A program made the position numbers and the translations under genes. Positions 50,997-58,595 of a stretch of 64,000 bases of DNA are shown piece after piece; position 1 is the first letter of the stretch; each line of letters begins with the position of its first letter. Origin of the DNA: Halohasta salina (lineage in GTDB: Archaea; Halobacteriota; Halobacteria; Halobacteriales; Haloferacaceae); contig NZ_JAMZIE010000007.1 of the NCBI RefSeq assembly GCF_024178165.1, positions 1 through 64,000 of the forward strand. Direction: 5' to 3'. Below the pieces are notes generated by a model. That model was given only the letters and a program-made list of their open reading frames with translations. It had not been told where the DNA came from and ran no database searches.

Positions 50997-53189
50997 CTAC
51001 AGACCGGCTGCCGGATCAGTCGTGTCGACCAGCTGGAGCCGCGTCTCGAACTCGACCCACGAGGGGTGAGCCCCCGGCTCGTCGGGGAGATACGTCCCCT
51101 CGCTGCCACACCGCGTCACCAGCGGACAGACCGTCCGCTCGGGCGGCCAGACCGCCTCGACGCTGCCGCCAGCCGACCGAACAGCGGCCTCCTGCCGATA
51201 GGTAAAGGTCGACCCCTCGGGATCGACCAGCGTGATCAGGAGCCGGACCTCGTCGGTGTCGTCGACCGGAATCGCTGTGTTGTTGACTGCCACCGACCGG
51301 TCGGCCGTGCCAACGGTGTCGAGCCGGGCCGCGTCGGGCGTGAGCGTCCAGTCGACGGTGACGTTCCGGGTCGGCGAGTCGAGATCGTAGCTCGCAGTGT
51401 CGGAGTCGGTTTCGAGTCGGACGGTCGCCCGGCTGATCCGGTTGGGGACGCCGACGGTCGACGCGCCGGCCAGCGACGGCCCCGACCGGATCGCCAGCGG
51501 TTCGAGTTTCGGCTGGACGTAGTCGTCGGGGTTCGGCGTCCACTCGCCACGGTAGGCGTAGCGGTAGTAGGTTCGGTTGGGGTAGGCATCGAGGACGGCG
51601 AAATCGCCGGCCGGATCGCGGTCCAGCGCATACACTACCTCGCCGTCGAAGCCGGGCTCGTTCCGGAGCGGCTGGAAGGGGTGGTTCTGCCACGGGCCGT
51701 AGGGGTCGGGGATGAAGACGAGCGCGTTGTCGAACTCGGCGGCCTCGATCGGCTCGTAGGCGACTTCGAACGTCTGGGTGGGTTCGACGTTCTCCTCAAG
51801 GGGGTCGGCCAGCAGCGCCGCGTTCGCCCCGCCGACCGCGAGGAGGCCAACCACGAGGGCAGCAACGGCGAGCCGACGCCGCGTGGCGGCACCAAACAGG
51901 GGAGCCAGCCGGTCGACCAGCCGGCTCCCGCGGAGCTGCCGCCAGCCGGCGACGACGCCGACTGCCGCAAAGATCGACAGCGGCACCAGCAGATCGAAGT
52001 AGTAGAAGGGGCCGAAGTGGGCCACCAGCCCGTCGGTGGGGTCGCTCAGCGTCGCCAACATGTTGTAATTGCCCCAGAAGGCGAGGTTCCCCAGCGGCAC
52101 CGAGACGAACAGCCCCGCCAGCAGCAGGCCCGCGGTGGGGTCGACGCCCTCTCCGATCCCGCGCCAGCGACCGAGAACAACCCCGAGGCCGACGACTGCG
52201 GCCGCGATACCGAGGAGGCCGCCGGTGAACCACCGGGTGCCGAGATACTGCAGCGCGTAGCTGTTGGCCTCGATCGCGAGCGGAAGGGTGTAGTCGACCG
52301 AGTGATCGAGGATCTCTCGGGTGCCGAACCCCGGCCCGTCGCGGGGGGCGAACACCTGATAGGGGAACACCAGCGGCGAGCCCGTCAGTCGGCGGTTGTA
52401 GGCCAGCGTGAGGCCGACGAAGGCGAGTCCGCCCAGCGCGGTCAGGCCGTTGCGCCGAACCGGATCCGGCAGCGAACCGAACCGCAGGTCGGTGCGGGCG
52501 ATCAACACCTCGCGTCGACGGAGTGCCCGCCAGATCGTCCACAGCGCGTGGGCGATAAACGGCGCGGCGAACAGCACGGCGGTGTAGGGCCGCGCGAAGA
52601 AGGCCAGTCCGATAGCGATCCCCGCCGCGGCCGCCGCCCGCGTCGACCCTGTACGGACGCCGTGGAGGTAGGCGACCGCAAACGCGAGATTCAGCAGTGT
52701 CGTCGGCGCGTACGGCAGAAACACGGCCGAGGTAAACAGCGTCATCGGTGCGGCCGCGAAGACGGCCGCCGCGACGAGGCCGGTCGACCGGTCGGCGACG
52801 GTCGATCCGAGCCGGTAGACCAGCGCGGTCGAGCCCGCGGCGATCAGCGCCAGCGTCACCCGCGGCTCGCCGAACAGGGCCATCGAGACGGCGTACATCG
52901 CCGCCGGCACCGGGCTGTACTTCGAGTAGAGCCGCCCGCCGTCCTCGATGAAGAACCACGGCCGGAACGCCTCGGCCAGTTCCCCGGCCTGCAGTTCGAG
53001 GCGGCCCTCCAGTAGCATGGCGGCCTGCATGAGATAGACGCCCTCGTCGTGGTTCGTCGAGTGGTAGGGGAAGACGACGAGCGCGATGAGGAAGACGACG
53101 GCACCCGACAGCGCGGCAACGGCCGCGGCGAGCCACTGCTGGCGGTCGACGGCGGCGAGCCGACGCCGGAGTCGGGCGGGGAGTGACAC
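50997..53189 (-). CDS. GT39/ArnT-like membrane glycosyltransferase
   Basis: A 730-residue protein with about ten membrane helices in its first 460 residues and a 250-residue external C-terminal domain. The first outer loop has NHDEGVYLMQAAMLLEGRLE, the acidic pair of PMT/ArnT-type enzymes that use polyprenyl-phosphate sugars. It also has YSKYSPVPAAMYAVSMALFG. Sugar and acceptor are unknown. The GTG start at 53189 follows the stop of the FbpA-like gene by one base, so it is read with it and probably shares its iron-box-like control. Confidence 0.85.
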   Translation of the reverse strand: MSLPARLRRRLAAVDRQQWLAAAVAALSGAVVFLIALVVFPYHSTNHDEGVYLMQAAMLLEGRLELQAGELAEAFRPWFFIEDGGRLYSKYSPVPAAMYAVSMALFGEPRVTLALIAAGSTALVYRLGSTVADRSTGLVAAAVFAAAPMTLFTSAVFLPYAPTTLLNLAFAVAYLHGVRTGSTRAAAAAGIAIGLAFFARPYTAVLFAAPFIAHALWTIWRALRRREVLIARTDLRFGSLPDPVRRNGLTALGGLAFVGLTLAYNRRLTGSPLVFPYQVFAPRDGPGFGTREILDHSVDYTLPLAIEANSYALQYLGTRWFTGGLLGIAAAVVGLGVVLGRWRGIGEGVDPTAGLLLAGLFVSVPLGNLAFWGNYNMLATLSDPTDGLVAHFGPFYYFDLLVPLSIFAAVGVVAGWRQLRGSRLVDRLAPLFGAATRRRLAVAALVVGLLAVGGANAALLADPLEENVEPTQTFEVAYEPIEAAEFDNALVFIPDPYGPWQNHPFQPLRNEPGFDGEVVYALDRDPAGDFAVLDAYPNRTYYRYAYRGEWTPNPDDYVQPKLEPLAIRSGPSLAGASTVGVPNRISRATVRLETDSDTASYDLDSPTRNVTVDWTLTPDAARLDTVGTADRSVAVNNTAIPVDDTDEVRLLITLVDPEGSTFTYRQEAAVRSAGGSVEAVWPPERTVCPLVTRCGSEGTYLPDEPGAHPSWVEFETRLQLVDTTDPAAGL

Positions 53190-53190
53190 G

Positions 53191-54324
53191 CTACGTTTCG
53201 ATGCCGACCTCACGCATGAGGTCGATGGTCGCCTGGACGTCCGACAGTTCGGCGAGCCGGAGGTCCGGCACGTCGAGTTCGTCGATCGTCGGCAGCTCAC
53301 CGACGGGGTCGACGTCGGGGATCAGGGGGTACTCGTAGGTCTCGACGGCGAAGTACTCCTGGGCTTCGGCCGACAGCAGGTGGCGGATGAAGTTCTCCGC
53401 GAGGTCGGGGTCGTCGGCCTCGTCGATCACGGCCGCGCCGGCGACATCGAAGATCGAGCCCGCATCACCCTCGGTGAAGGCGGTCTCGATCGGCGCGTCG
53501 GGCGAGCCGGCCAGCACGCGCTGGATGTAGTAGTGGTTGGCGAAGCCGGCGTCGAGTTCGCCGTCGGCGACCGCCTGTGAGACCCGAAGCTCGTCGTCGT
53601 AGGCCTGAATGCCGGCCTCAACGACGCCCTCCAGCCACTCGCGAGTGGCCTCTTCGCCCTCTAGCTGCCGCATTGCAGTCACGAAGCCCTGACAGGACGG
53701 ATAGGAGGGAGCCCAGCCGAGGTCGCCCTCGAACTCCGGGAACTCCATGATGCTCGCGGGGAGCTCCGAGTCGCTGTAGGCGTCGGTGTTGAACGGAATC
53801 GATCGGGCGCGGCCGGAGGTCCCGGTCCAGGAGTCGGTGTGGAACTCGTCGCGAACCAGATCGGTGATCGTCGACGAGAGGTCCTGGGTTCGGCCTTCAT
53901 CGGCGAGCGCGCCGAGACCGCCGGAGTCGACGGTATAGAAGACGTCGGCCGGCGTCCCAGCACCCTCGCTGATGATCTGGTTGACGAGGTCGCTGCCGTC
54001 GCCGTAGCGGACGATGGGTTCGAAGTCCGGATAGGTGTCGTCGAGGAACGAGATCAGCTGGCCGACGAGGAACTCCCCGCGGCCCGAGTAGATCGTGAGT
54101 TCACCCTCCAGATCGGGCATCTCCGCGACCGGCGTCCCGCCGGGAGCATCCCGGCCCTCGCGGCCAGATCCGATCTGGCCGACCGTCGAGCCGGCGGTCT
54201 CCTCGCTGCCGCCGCCGTCGCCGACCAGATTCGTACACCCTGCGAGCGTCACTGCGCCGATCGCCGCCGATCCCGCGAGGAAGCGTCGACGGTTCGAGCG
54301 CTGCGGATCGTTCTGTCGTGTCAT
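53191..54324 (-). CDS. FbpA-like iron(III)-binding lipoprotein, without transporter genes beside it
   Basis: A 377-residue exported protein of the FbpA/FutA type. SNRRRFLAGSAAIGAVTLAG followed by Cys is a Tat lipoprotein signal. The fold includes LTIYSGRGEFLVGQLISFLD, GTPADVFYTVDSGGLGALAD and the conserved tyrosine pair in NHYYIQRVL, the Fe(III) ligands of FbpA. The permease and ATPase are not here. The promoter carries a palindrome that resembles an iron box, consistent with use during iron shortage. The glycosyltransferase gene follows after one base. Confidence 0.9.
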   Translation of the reverse strand: MTRQNDPQRSNRRRFLAGSAAIGAVTLAGCTNLVGDGGGSEETAGSTVGQIGSGREGRDAPGGTPVAEMPDLEGELTIYSGRGEFLVGQLISFLDDTYPDFEPIVRYGDGSDLVNQIISEGAGTPADVFYTVDSGGLGALADEGRTQDLSSTITDLVRDEFHTDSWTGTSGRARSIPFNTDAYSDSELPASIMEFPEFEGDLGWAPSYPSCQGFVTAMRQLEGEEATREWLEGVVEAGIQAYDDELRVSQAVADGELDAGFANHYYIQRVLAGSPDAPIETAFTEGDAGSIFDVAGAAVIDEADDPDLAENFIRHLLSAEAQEYFAVETYEYPLIPDVDPVGELPTIDELDVPDLRLAELSDVQATIDLMREVGIET

Positions 54325-54327
54325 ATT

Positions 54328-54343
54328 TTTAGGCTAACCTAAA
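54328..54343. promoter_or_regulatory. DtxR/IdeR-like iron-box palindrome, copy 1
   Basis: The 16-base palindrome tttaggctaacctaaa has perfect six-base arms tttagg and cctaaa. It lies between a minus-strand TATA-like tataagtt (54346..54354) and the ATG at 54324 of the FbpA-like gene, where a repressor would block transcription. It resembles one half of an IdeR/DtxR box. Confidence 0.65.
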
Positions 54344-54372
54344 ACAACTTATACTCGTCGGTTCGCCCGGCG

Positions 54373-55527
54373 TCAGGCGGTCGACTCGATGGCCTCGAGG
54401 CAGTCGAGGTAGTCGTTCATGAACTCGCCGATGTAATTGAAGAACGCGCCGTTGTTGTACTCCGAGAAGTCGCCGTCGGCGAGTTCGTCGGCCATCGCCG
54501 CGAAGATCGCCGCGTAGGGCTCGTCGTCGTCGGGCGAGACGTCGCCGCCGACGTCGTCGACGATCTCCCAGAGGTGTTCGTTGAGTTCGAGGCCGGGGAC
54601 CTCGTTGTTGAGGTCGTCGAAGGTGCTGCGGGGAGCCTTGTTGTGCTCACAGAGCGGCGCACCGTTGTAGATCTGTTTGCCGAGAATGTCGCAGGCGCGT
54701 TTGAGGAAGACCCCCGACCAGATGTCGTCGAACCGGCCGACGTCCCACTCGTTTTCGTCCATCGGCAGCTGGTAGAACGCCGGAATCACTTCGCGGCGGA
54801 ACGCGAGATTCATGGAGCAAACGGTGAGGTACTGGCCCTCCGCAGCGACGAAGTCGTCACCGAAGTCGTCGGCGGTGGTTCGGGTCTGGGCCTGTCCCTG
54901 CAGGTCACCGTCCATCAGGATGCGGACGGCATCGAGGTCCGGCACGTTGGTCCACAGGCCTTGAGAAGCGACGATCTCGCCGCCGTCGATCTCCGTCGTC
55001 CCGGTGTCGACGCTCTCGTGCATCGCCGAGTAGGGATAGCCGCGCGGGTACAACTCGTGCTCGTCGGCGTTCTGGTAGAGCACGTTGACCCACTGCTCGT
55101 CGGAGGCAACCGACTCGATCTCGCCCTCGAAGGCGAGGTTCGCCATGTGGGTGCCGAAGAAGTCCTGATCGTCGTGGGGCAGCGTATCGTCGTCGATGAA
55201 GAAGCCGTACTCGTAGTCGCCGGCCCACATGTAGAGGAGGCCGAAGCTGGTCTCGGCGTGGCTGGCGGCGGGGATGATGTGGCTGTAGTCGGCGACGCCG
55301 TGGGCCTCAAACCACTCCTCGCGGCGACTGCCGTCGAAGACCTCGCCGTCGACGTCCTCTTCCTCGAGCATCGCTTCCATCTGGTCGGTCTCACAGAAGT
55401 CCTCGGTGACCAGCACGACGTGGAGCCGCGAGAGGTCGAACCCGTGCTCGCGGGCGTTCTCGAAGTAGGACCGCATACACTCGTACTCCCGGATCGTCGG
55501 CACAACGACGCAGATATCCTGACTCAT
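54373..55527 (-). CDS. Reversibly glycosylated protein-like glycosyltransferase (GT75)
   Basis: A 384-residue cytosolic protein of the RGP or alpha-1,4-glucan-protein synthase type. It starts DICVVVPTIREYECMRSYFE, has the metal-binding acidic motif GFFIDDDTLPHDDQDFFG near residue 126, and FDDIWSGVFLKRACDILG near 268. In plants such proteins convert UDP-arabinopyranose to the furanose or take up a sugar on themselves. In archaea their product is unknown. A palindrome of the iron-box type lies just upstream, so it would be regulated together with the FbpA-like gene. Confidence 0.85.
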   Translation of the reverse strand: MSQDICVVVPTIREYECMRSYFENAREHGFDLSRLHVVLVTEDFCETDQMEAMLEEEDVDGEVFDGSRREEWFEAHGVADYSHIIPAASHAETSFGLLYMWAGDYEYGFFIDDDTLPHDDQDFFGTHMANLAFEGEIESVASDEQWVNVLYQNADEHELYPRGYPYSAMHESVDTGTTEIDGGEIVASQGLWTNVPDLDAVRILMDGDLQGQAQTRTTADDFGDDFVAAEGQYLTVCSMNLAFRREVIPAFYQLPMDENEWDVGRFDDIWSGVFLKRACDILGKQIYNGAPLCEHNKAPRSTFDDLNNEVPGLELNEHLWEIVDDVGGDVSPDDDEPYAAIFAAMADELADGDFSEYNNGAFFNYIGEFMNDYLDCLEAIESTA

Positions 55528-55544
55528 TTCGGTAGCTGAATCTT

Positions 55545-55560
55545 TTTAGGCACTCCTAAA
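55545..55560. promoter_or_regulatory. DtxR/IdeR-like iron-box palindrome, copy 2
   Basis: The palindrome tttaggcactcctaaa has the same six-base arms and four-base centre as copy 1. It is 18 bases upstream of the ATG (55527) of the RGP-like gene and 26 bases from the stop of the gene before it. Confidence 0.65.
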
Positions 55561-55586
55561 GAATTGTCGATCTCCGTCGGTAGCCT

Positions 55587-56687
55587 CTACTGAGCGGTTT
55601 CGGCAGCGGTCCCCTGCTCGGCGGCCTCGGTGGGTGAGACCCCCAGCCGAGCGATGGCTACGGCGCCACCGACGAGCGTGACGGCGTTTTTCAACGCGTG
55701 GTCCACGACGGCAGCGGCGAGAGCGGTACTCGCACCCAGCGGCGTCAGCGCGACCACGAGCGCGGTGAAGGCGGCCTCGTAGAGGCCGATCCCGCCCTGG
55801 GAGAGCGGCAGCACTTTGGCGAGGTTGCCGACGCTGACCGCAAGGGTGCCGACGACGAGCAGGTGGCCGACCGCGAGACTGCCGTCGAGGGCCGCGAGGA
55901 CGAGGATCGCCGTGGCGACGTCCAGGGCCCACACCACCAGACTCTCGGCCCCGACGACGACCATCGCGCGTGGGTTCCGCGCGACGACGGCCACGTCACT
56001 GGCGAAACTGACGACCGCCGCGACCAGCGGGTCGAGCCGTGGAAACCGGTCGACGACGGCGGTGGCGACCGCTCCCGGTCGGAACCGAGAGCGGGCAGCG
56101 GCGACCGTCGAGACGCCAACCGCCAGCGTCACCGCGGTCACACCCCCCGCAGCCAGCAGTGCGGTACGGCCCCGTTCGGCCTCGGCGAGCAGGGTCAGCG
56201 GGCCGACGTCGCCACCGACTGCGAGCCACAGCGTGGCGAGGCCACCGAGGACTGCGATCGCGGCGAGGTCGAAGACGCGTTCGACCGCCAGAGAGGCGAA
56301 GCCGGCGGGGTAGGGCACCTGACGGCGGGCTTGGAGCACGTAGGCCCGCACCCCGTCGCCCGCCCGGGCCGGCAACACGAGGTTGGCCGTCTGGCTCAGA
56401 AACACGGCCAAGGTGAGAAACCGCGTGCCGAGGGGGTGGCCGGTCGCCGCCAGCACGTCGCCGTAGCGGCGGCCCCGGAGCGGCCACGACAGCGCGTAGA
56501 GGCCGACCGCCGCCGCGAGCAGTCGTGAGTCGGCGCGGGCCATCGCCGCGATGACCGAGGCGACGTCGACGTCCCGAAAGGCGACGACGAGCCCGGCGAA
56601 GACGGCCACCGTCCCCAGAATGGCCAGTCGACGGCGCGTCGCCGCGGCTCGAAGGCGGCCTGCCAGTCCGGTGCCGGCGCGATGCAT
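55587..56687 (-). CDS. Flippase-like membrane protein (LPG synthase TM domain / UPF0104)
   Basis: A 366-residue protein with about eight helices. The hallmarks of the UPF0104/lysylphosphatidylglycerol synthase TM family are present: LAVFLSQTANLVLPARAGDG VRAYVL (the N-x-x-x-P-x-R-x-G-D motif), FASLAVERVFDLAAIAVLG (ER-x-x-D), and the late LPLSQGGIGLYEAAFTALVV. Members move or modify lipid-linked sugars in surface-polysaccharide clusters. Iron-box-like palindrome upstream. It is the first gene of the minus-strand series. Confidence 0.88.
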   Translation of the reverse strand: MHRAGTGLAGRLRAAATRRRLAILGTVAVFAGLVVAFRDVDVASVIAAMARADSRLLAAAVGLYALSWPLRGRRYGDVLAATGHPLGTRFLTLAVFLSQTANLVLPARAGDGVRAYVLQARRQVPYPAGFASLAVERVFDLAAIAVLGGLATLWLAVGGDVGPLTLLAEAERGRTALLAAGGVTAVTLAVGVSTVAAARSRFRPGAVATAVVDRFPRLDPLVAAVVSFASDVAVVARNPRAMVVVGAESLVVWALDVATAILVLAALDGSLAVGHLLVVGTLAVSVGNLAKVLPLSQGGIGLYEAAFTALVVALTPLGASTALAAAVVDHALKNAVTLVGGAVAIARLGVSPTEAAEQGTAAETAQ

Positions 56688-56711
56688 ACACTCCCGGTTC
56701 GCCCAGAGGTT

Positions 56712-56727
56712 TTTAAGCCTGCCTAAA
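56712..56727. promoter_or_regulatory. DtxR/IdeR-like iron-box palindrome, copy 3 (imperfect)
   Basis: The sequence tttaagcctgcctaaa differs from the consensus tttagg-N4-cctaaa by one base in one arm. It lies 25 bases before the ATG of the flippase-like gene. Confidence 0.55.
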
Positions 56728-56781: not shown

Positions 56782-57711
56782 TCAACGGAGTTCGTCGATC
56801 AGTGCGCGGGTCGAACGGCGGACAGCTTCGTCGCTGCTGAGTTCGGGCTCCCAGCCCAGCGCCGAGAGCTTCTCGATGGACAGACGCATCTTCGGGACAT
56901 CACCGGTCCAGCCGCGGTCGCCGCCGGTGTACTCGTAGTCGGGGTCGAGATCCATCTCGTCGGCGACGATGGCGGCGATCCGGTCGACCGAGGTCGTCGT
57001 CCGGGTGCCGAGGTTGTAGGTATTCACCGCGTCGTCGGCGGTGGTGACGATGTGCAGCATGGCGTCGACGCAGTCGTCGATGTGGAGGTAGGATTTCTCT
57101 TGGCGGCCGTCGCCGAGGATCGTCAGCGTCTCGGGATCGTCGACCAACTTCTCGATGAAGTCGGGGATCACCGCGCCGCGGAGGCCCGATCCGACGACGT
57201 TCGCAAAGCGGAAGTTCCAGACGGTCAGGTCGTGGCTGTGGGCCCGTGCCGACAGCAGCCCTTCGTCGGCGAGTTTGCTCGCGCCGTAGGCGCTGATCGG
57301 TTCGAGCGGGGCGTAGTCCTCGGGGGTCGGACGGGGGGCCTCCCCATAGACTGTCGACGAGGAGGTGTAGGCGATCTTCGTGACGCCTGCGTCGGCCATG
57401 GCTTCGAGCAGATTGCGGGTCATCTTCGTGTTGTCCTCGAACTGGCCGTGTGGCCGGTCGGTGTCGACGAGTTTCGAGGCCGCGAGGTGGAACACGAGGT
57501 CGACGTCGTCGAGGACGCCGTCGAGGGATGCGGGGTCGGTGAGGTCGGCTTCGACGAACTCTGCGTCGTCGGCGACCCGCTCGCGGGAGCCGTTCGAACA
57601 GTCGTCGACGACCGTTACGGCCGAGCCGTCGGCGAGCAGTCGGGAAACGAGGTGTGCCCCGACGAAGCCCGCGCCGCCGGTGACCAGAACGTGGTGGTCG
57701 GCAAGATCCAT
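56782..57711 (-). CDS. NAD-dependent sugar epimerase/dehydratase (GalE-like)
   Basis: A 309-residue short-chain dehydrogenase-type sugar nucleotide enzyme. It has HVLVTGGAGFVGAHLVSRLL, DLVFHLAASKLVDTDRPHG, and the catalytic Thr/Ser-Tyr-Lys set YTSSSTVYGEAPRP and SAYGASKLADEGLLS (YxxxK). It converts one UDP-hexose to another, probably for glycan building, next to glycosyltransferase genes. Its own upstream region lacks the iron-box palindrome. The precise sugar is unknown. Confidence 0.9.
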   Translation of the reverse strand: MDLADHHVLVTGGAGFVGAHLVSRLLADGSAVTVVDDCSNGSRERVADDAEFVEADLTDPASLDGVLDDVDLVFHLAASKLVDTDRPHGQFEDNTKMTRNLLEAMADAGVTKIAYTSSSTVYGEAPRPTPEDYAPLEPISAYGASKLADEGLLSARAHSHDLTVWNFRFANVVGSGLRGAVIPDFIEKLVDDPETLTILGDGRQEKSYLHIDDCVDAMLHIVTTADDAVNTYNLGTRTTTSVDRIAAIVADEMDLDPDYEYTGGDRGWTGDVPKMRLSIEKLSALGWEPELSSDEAVRRSTRALIDELR

Positions 57712-57866: not shown

Positions 57867-58595
57867 ATGCTTTCAGGAAAGACTGCAATCGTTACCGGTG
57901 GATCGGCAGGAATCGGGAAGGCGATCGCCGAGGAGTTCCTCAATCAGGGTGCGTCGGTCGTCATCGCGAACCGCTCCGAAGAGAACGGCCGACAGACGGC
58001 CGAGGAACTCGGCTGTTCGTTCATCCAGTGTGATGTCTCCTCCTACGACGCGGTGACCGACCTCGTCGACCGGACGGTCGAGGAACACGGCGGGCTGGAT
58101 ATCATGGTCAACAACGCCGGGATCGGGCTGACCGGCACCGTCGAGACCACCTCGCTCGACGACTGGCAGCAACTGCTGGAGGTCAACCTCAACGGCGTGA
58201 TATACGGAACGCGGGCGGCGATGCCATACCTCAAGGAGTCGTCGGGCTGTGTCCTCAACGTGGCGTCGGTCTTCGGGCTCGTCGGCGGACCACAGACCGC
58301 CGCCTACGCGACCGCCAAGGGGGCGGTCGTCAACTTCACCCGGACGACGGCCGTCGACTACGCCGAGGCGGGCGTCCGCGTCAACAGCATCTGTCCGGGG
58401 TTCGTCCGGACGGCGATGACCGAGTCGGAACTCGAGAAGGACTCCTTCTACGAGTTCGTCCTCAACCAGACCCCAATCAGCCGCGTCGCCGAACCCGAGG
58501 AGGTCGCCGAGCCGGCGGCGTTCCTGGCTTCGGACAGCGCCTCCTACATCACCGGGGTGAACCTCCCGATCGACGGCGGCTGGACGACGCACTGA
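57867..58595 (+). CDS. Short-chain dehydrogenase/reductase
   Basis: A 242-residue SDR oxidoreductase. Cofactor motif TGGSAGIGKAIAEEFL, NNAG as NNAGIGLTGT, catalytic Ser in VLNVASVFGL, and YATAKGAVVN (YxxxK). The C-terminal end PAAFLASDSASYITGVNLPI DGGW is typical of 3-oxoacyl-ACP-reductase or glucose dehydrogenase-like members. Substrate unknown. The upstream 155 bases are A/T-rich with a direct repeat of atgtaa at 57803 and 57812, and a TATA-like aaaatacaat near 57831 fits a leaderless start. Confidence 0.92.
   Translation: MLSGKTAIVTGGSAGIGKAIAEEFLNQGASVVIANRSEENGRQTAEELGCSFIQCDVSSYDAVTDLVDRTVEEHGGLDIMVNNAGIGLTGTVETTSLDDWQQLLEVNLNGVIYGTRAAMPYLKESSGCVLNVASVFGLVGGPQTAAYATAKGAVVNFTRTTAVDYAEAGVRVNSICPGFVRTAMTESELEKDSFYEFVLNQTPISRVAEPEEVAEPAAFLASDSASYITGVNLPIDGGWTTH

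Follow-up and report, generated by a model that had tools for sequence, protein, structure and literature searches.

The present analysis concerns a 64,000-nucleotide stretch of the Halohasta salina genome (the window, in full: positions 1 to 64,000 of NZ_JAMZIE010000007.1, part of contig C23 in our numbering, in a genome of 3.04 Mb) in which a palindrome, TTTAGG-N4-CCTAAA, stands before the gene for a ferric-binding lipoprotein, FbpA, and before genes for putative glycan enzymes. Patterns detected in this and related genomes indicate that the palindromes are almost certainly operators of an iron-dependent repressor of the DtxR/IdeR type, and they provide strong comparative evidence that iron control has been selected both for RGP, a predicted nucleoside-diphosphate (NDP) sugar mutase, and for an operon running from FbpA to GT39, a predicted membrane glycosyltransferase. 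Functional coupling of these glycan enzymes to the ferric transporter FbpABC is very probable. The best explanation, which we regard as somewhat better than an even bet, is that a repressor released under iron shortage induces FbpABC together with a dedicated glycosylation route, with FbpA as its likely acceptor. DtxR-type iron regulation, Fbp transporters and the GT75 family, to which RGP is assigned, are known parts; what is apparently new is their conserved iron-regulated union with GT39, of which no description was found in the literature, where the regulon paper of Leyn and Rodionov (2015) may list some of the genes. Literature searches for RGP or for links between iron and glycans in haloarchaea returned nothing relevant.

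Iron boxes in the window and across the genome

Exact copies of the palindrome occur at 54328-54343 (box 1, TTTAGGCTAACCTAAA, i.e. TTTAGG-CTAA-CCTAAA) and 55545-55560 (box 2, TTTAGGCACTCCTAAA), and a third copy with one mismatch lies at 56712-56727 (box 3, TTTAAGCCTGCCTAAA). A preliminary description of this DNA had reported the same three copies, and they proved to be the only matches in the window at up to two mismatches, compared with a mean of 0.17, and never three, in 100 dinucleotide shuffles. Also as described there, box 1 lies on the minus strand between the fbpA TATA box (TATAAG, 54348..54353, strand -, read from the sequence) and the ATG at 54324; the centre of the TATA box is some 27 nt ahead of this start codon, a distance that fits a leaderless transcript. 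Box 2 is 18-33 nt before the ATG of RGP and box 3 is 25-40 nt before the ATG of a flippase-like gene, and both overlap the core promoter at the expected TATA position. Order-wide profiles anchored on the box showed an A/T element just upstream of it in the FbpA promoters of relatives, and in their RGP promoters an A-rich element 5′ of the box with the box arm TTTTTAGG at the expected TATA position. Both geometries would be compatible with repression, either by blocked assembly or by blocked transcription start. The stretch TTAGGCTAACCTAA of box 1 equals the last 14 bases of the mycobacterial IdeR consensus.

The preliminary description read the palindrome as a DtxR/IdeR-type iron operator and proposed a genome search with a tally of the adjacent genes. 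This search yielded nine exact sites and seven with one mismatch, 16 in all, and the reversed control pattern gave no exact match and four matches per strand at up to one mismatch. The genes at these sites, some of them with one mismatch, include FeoA-FeoB, a siderophore transporter (Peripla_BP_2, FecCD and ATPase), an FbpC-like ATPase, an FbpB-like permease, and a DUF5059-plastocyanin lipoprotein divergent from DpsA. The remainder are a GT2 enzyme, the three genes of the window, genes for a PAS histidine kinase and for one DUF7553 and one DUF7547 protein, and an operon in which a short DtxR protein is encoded. FbpB (C19:219586), FbpC (C18:321816) and GT2 are on contigs other than that of the window in this genome, and have retained their boxes. 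Iron genes are thus what the site marks throughout the genome. On this comparative evidence the iron/DtxR reading stands, and it is in keeping with the DtxR-type iron regulation established in haloarchaea (Idr, SirR and TroR, with ferR signals; PMC11349517). The present regulon resembles both DtxR/IdeR boxes and this ferR regulon in that a TTAGG...CCTAA palindrome lies at the core promoters of genes for iron uptake and storage, and differs from them in taking in a conserved set of glycan enzymes. Scatter of the box among random genes, which would have spoken against the earlier reading, is ruled out by the iron genes at the sites and by the absence of exact cores within genes (all 273 at the 97 related loci described below lie outside gene interiors). 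Chance origin of the palindromes is likewise ruled out by the shuffles, the reversed control, the conservation of the boxes and the placement of all these cores.

Several further features of the sites were observed. Boxes are often paired, with 34-36 bp between starts (C18:484481/484515, C19:7348/7384 and C23:107241/107277, and also in other genomes, G031 and G090 among them), which suggests that two repressor dimers share a single stretch of DNA. A short DtxR-family gene, in a row with genes for DUF7552 and DUF7551 proteins, lies 3′ of an exact box and adjoins the siderophore transporter (C19, L028:475-2947); autoregulation of this gene is possible. Another exact box abuts the predicted ATG of the PAS-domain histidine kinase (C19:34748, L029:6749-6764), such that this signalling protein may be under iron control. 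A 77-aa DUF7553-like protein with two exact boxes before its gene (C18, L027:6202-6531) is an unexplained member of the regulon.

Conservation and composition of the block

Conservation was assessed in 146 genomes of the order, from which 98 RGP orthologues were compared, at 97 other loci and in the window. RGP is present in 100 of the 146 genomes and GT39 in 101, these being the same genomes with the exception of one, G133, which is 77% complete. The usual order around the 98 RGP genes is boxed RGP, boxed FbpA, FbpB, FbpC and GT39, tightly packed, often with a boxed GT2 on the opposite strand. Exact boxes were found before 93/98 RGP, 91/98 FbpA and 32/49 GT2 genes (shuffled expectation 0.00), and boxes at up to one mismatch before all 24 linked flippase genes, where the shuffled expectation for one mismatch was at most 0.14. 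The exact 16-base pattern occurred in 96 of the 97 near-complete genomes that were scanned. In relatives GT39 comes last in the fbpABC operon, with its own box in 0/98. The regulon of lipoprotein, GT39, RGP and flippase first envisaged for the window is supported, with boxes at FbpA, RGP and the flippase gene and none at GT39, which is presumably read from the FbpA box because its GTG start at 53189 follows the FbpA stop by a gap of 1 nt. The accompanying proposal that iron status is linked to glycan genes is well borne out, inasmuch as the RGP box recurs in different families of haloarchaea and both RGP and GT39 are found at the Fbp operon itself.

FbpA (53191..54324, strand -) is a Tat (twin-arginine translocation) lipoprotein and by sequence a ferric-binding protein, since its entire domain aligns with ferric-binding proteins of solved structure (best phmmer match PDB 7w3w, E=2.8e-52), and the Tyr-Tyr of its NHYY motif is invariant in 98 FbpA orthologues. 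A role as a phosphonate or thiamine binder was rejected, since the NCBIfam phnS2 and sfuA matches were far under their cut-offs, compared with a ferric-binding match of 1e-52. Its permease and ATPase partners are the boxed FbpB and FbpC found elsewhere in this genome and contiguous with FbpA in relatives. In domain match, tyrosine motif and neighbouring FbpB and FbpC of relatives the system is like FbpABC, SfuABC and HitABC transporters; it is unlike them in that the haloarchaeal FbpA has an extra tether bearing an invariant Gly-Ser-Gly. We know of no bacterial FbpABC-type system with a built-in mutase and GT-C enzyme.

RGP (54373..55527, strand -; Pfam RGP) is predicted to be a GT75-type NDP-sugar pyranose/furanose mutase. 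It matches the MtdL-type GT75 protein 7yua (phmmer, E=1.1e-23) and UDP-arabinopyranose mutase 8cid (E=2.4e-5), and its nearest counterpart among named records is from Halohasta litorea (89%). Members of GT75 interconvert NDP-pyranose and NDP-furanose by means of a DDD motif, with arginine as the nucleophile and histidine as a ligand of the metal (PMC9937993), and the corresponding DDD, PRG (Arg) and LC-H (His) motifs of RGP, which align with the MtdL stretches reported there, are invariant in the 98 orthologues. Assignment as a plain glycosyltransferase was set aside given that the best solved relatives are GT75 mutases. The sequence match and retained motifs make RGP similar to MtdL and the plant RGP/UAM mutases, while its position in an iron operon sets it apart from characterised members, which serve antibiotic or plant cell-wall synthesis. 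The earlier labels of an "FbpA-like" protein and an "RGP-like sugar enzyme" may thus be sharpened to a ferric-binding protein and a GT75-type NDP-sugar mutase, as judged by sequence.

The protein called GT39 here (50997..53189, strand -; PMT_2 plus DUF7846) is GT39-like and matched PMT_2 with a Pfam score of 29.2 bits against a cut-off of 26.1. A sequence search of the PDB gave no useful match for it, and an AlphaFold model (mean pLDDT, the predicted local distance difference test, 81.6) was therefore used for a fold search, in which the GT-C enzymes ALG9, AglB/OST, ArnT and Emb were matched. Asp85-Glu86 in outer loop 1 (numbered from an upstream GTG at 53300) was invariant in 31 sequences, and GT39 is modelled as a GT-C membrane glycosyltransferase. 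Likeness to ArnT, PMT, Emb and AglB/OST extends from the predicted fold and the conserved Asp-Glu after the first membrane helix to the dolichol-phosphate-sugar-synthase-like GT2 that is encoded beside GT39 in relatives; the differences are a C-terminal DUF7846 beta-domain with two conserved cysteines, and iron control. The GT2 of the present genome is encoded on contig C19 and is similar to dolichol-phosphate-mannose synthase 5mlz (E=1.2e-14).

The gene behind box 3 encodes a flippase-like membrane protein of the UPF0104 / LPG_synthase_TM family (55587..56687, strand -; Pfam E=5e-43, TIGR00374). UPF0104 proteins are predicted to flip lipid-linked sugars and are tied to S-layer glycosylation (PMC5898192), and a Haloferax member of the family, HVO_1859, possibly an orthologue of the window flippase, rose 11.6-fold in iron starvation (PMC11349517), in line with the induction proposed here. 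In many genomes the nearest homologues lie within open frames some 610-650 aa long, as would be expected for a GT2-flippase fusion like AglD. A role for the flippase as an essential linked part is not supported, with linkage in 24/98 loci and many best homologues elsewhere of AglD size. Beyond it lies a gene for an NAD-dependent sugar epimerase (56782..57711, strand -; Pfam), which has no box, is linked in 15/98 loci and has its own box in 1/15; a GalE-type epimerase, HVO_0655, a possible counterpart, rose 12.7-fold in iron starvation in the same Haloferax study (PMC11349517). An SDR gene (57867-58595) adjoins the epimerase on the opposite strand. On contig C19, a GMC oxidoreductase and a lipoprotein resembling gluconate-2-dehydrogenase subunit 3 are encoded between boxed GT2 and boxed FbpB (L030:7431-9556); this pair stays beside GT2 in many relatives and is possibly an extra part of the iron block.

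The FbpA tether and competing explanations

The favoured explanation would operate as follows. With iron present, the repressor would occupy the TATA boxes of RGP, fbpA(-GT39) and the flippase gene, or the DNA immediately downstream of these elements, and keep the promoters blocked; with iron short they would open together with other iron-uptake genes. The outcome would be a ferric-iron ATP-binding cassette (ABC) transporter, with FbpA from the window and FbpB and FbpC from elsewhere, and a dedicated glycosylation route in which RGP converts NDP-pyranose to NDP-furanose, GT2 loads the sugar onto dolichyl phosphate, and the lipid-linked sugar is flipped by the UPF0104 protein or by one resembling AglD. 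Outside the membrane the GT-C enzyme would then pass the sugar on, with the tether Gly-Ser-Gly serine of FbpA as the most likely recipient. The lipid-linked sugar made is probably furanosyl. We infer the donor sugar and its chemistry, the acceptor, and which DtxR protein binds, whereas the sites and where they occur, the make-up of the operons, the co-occurrence of the genes, the family assignments and the motifs of active sites and tether are observed in the sequences. Taken in full, as an iron-controlled O-glycosylation system in which a GT75 furanosyl donor, GT2, flipping and the GT-C enzyme of the same operon serve the Gly-Ser-Gly serine, the proposal is tentative and we would not expect every element to hold.

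The candidate acceptor, Gly52-Ser53-Gly54 (54163..54171, strand -), is invariant within the tether between the lipobox and the binding domain, a stretch of variable length and composition for which disorder is predicted (residues 1-57, pLDDT<50). Gly-Ser-Gly was present in 99/99 FbpA linked to the module of glycan genes, versus 1/40 of those not linked. The non-linked FbpA that lack it include paralogues within module-bearing genomes (L209, L221, L222, L227 and L228), and some with an otherwise similar tether carry Asp in place of Ser (GDG, GDT). Module linkage changes four times on a tree built without the tether. Because an invariant serine in a disordered tether tracks the mutase and the GT-C enzyme, it is suggested to be the site of modification. 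The preliminary description had cell-surface glycans in general as the target, and this may be refined to the extent that FbpA itself may be the acceptor; O-glycosylation of FbpA is, however, the weakest step of the argument, and we place it a little short of even.

Several observations weigh against this explanation. The correlation of Gly-Ser-Gly with the module goes back to a small number of independent events: two well-supported independent pairs, or up to four, point the same way in almost every random pairing, too few for the sign test to be significant. At locus L194 (genome G006), in a genome without RGP or GT39, FbpA keeps Gly-Ser-Gly while its near relatives have GDG, possibly because the module was lost recently. 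Only 24/98 loci have a linked flippase, and the GT-C model does not separate protein from lipid or glycan acceptors, the nearest folds including ALG9, OST, ArnT and Emb. Many boxed FbpABC systems occur without any glycan genes, and therefore ferric uptake in itself does not require the sugar.

An alternative explanation could be that the module remodels the general cell surface under low iron (S-layer glycan, exopolysaccharide or glycolipid, for example with a terminal furanose), FbpA being co-regulated and not an acceptor. Galactofuranose has been reported in the surface glycoprotein of Halobacterium, and among the nearest GT-C folds are enzymes that act on glycans carried by lipid (ALG9), on lipid A (ArnT) and on the arabinan of cell walls (Emb); the S-layer connection of the flippase family noted above points the same way. 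This would not readily account for the position of GT39 and RGP beside Fbp genes in nearly all carriers and their joint absence elsewhere, nor for the tracking of module linkage by the tether motif, paralogues without it included, and we consider general remodelling unlikely, if the most credible of the alternatives. Operon linkage with a ferric transporter under iron control would also be expected if the glycan enzymes built a secreted or membrane-bound sugar-containing iron ligand, i.e. a glycolipid or saccharide chelator handing ferric iron to FbpA. No gene for synthesis of a chelating group was common to the seven loci for which gene contents were tabulated, however, and relatives of FbpA bind bare ferric iron via tyrosines of the kind conserved in NHYY, which renders a chelator quite improbable.

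The remaining alternatives bear on regulation and linkage. The genome encodes three DtxR-family proteins above the Pfam cut-off, one of full length (IdeR match, E=4.5e-34) and two short, any of which might bind, so that the palindrome could be the operator of another DtxR-family metal regulator, such as a manganese type, or of an unrelated repressor. Against this are the iron genes listed under the sites (FeoAB, Fec, Fbp and DpsA), with no manganese transporter among the sites examined, and the finding that ferR (iron) signals precede all Haloferax siderophore transporter operons (PMC11349517), and we regard a different regulator as highly improbable. It might also be argued, from the split of the block in this genome and hence the looseness of linkage alone, that the glycan genes came to lie beside fbpA by chance, as passengers, and gained boxes there. 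Conservation in many families, the separate box of RGP, the boxes that GT2 and FbpB have kept despite their separation, and the all-or-none co-occurrence of the genes make such an origin scarcely credible.

A possible link between iron status and archaeal O-glycosylation

A sugar bond to serine, if true, would be O-glycosylation, for which the pathway in archaea, haloarchaea included, has been stated to be unknown, with no enzyme assigned (PMC8241124, PMC8305020). A di-hexose has been reported as likely on Haloferax Tat lipoproteins, one ABC solute-binding protein among them (PMC8241124), and a lipoprotein acceptor therefore has precedent, though with a different sugar. The proposed modification of FbpA thus agrees with haloarchaeal protein O-glycosylation in its type of acceptor and departs from it in predicting a furanosyl sugar rather than the reported di-hexose. 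For archaeal O-glycosylation the block offers a candidate enzyme, a donor route, an acceptor residue and an inducing condition, by which the pathway becomes testable, and the model species Haloferax volcanii carries an RGP-family gene. The findings also suggest a use of GT75 mutases outside plants and antibiotic clusters. More broadly, iron status appears to be coupled to extracellular glycosylation in an arrangement conserved in roughly 70% of the sampled genomes, which suggests that under iron shortage these cells may decorate an iron-catching surface protein with sugar.

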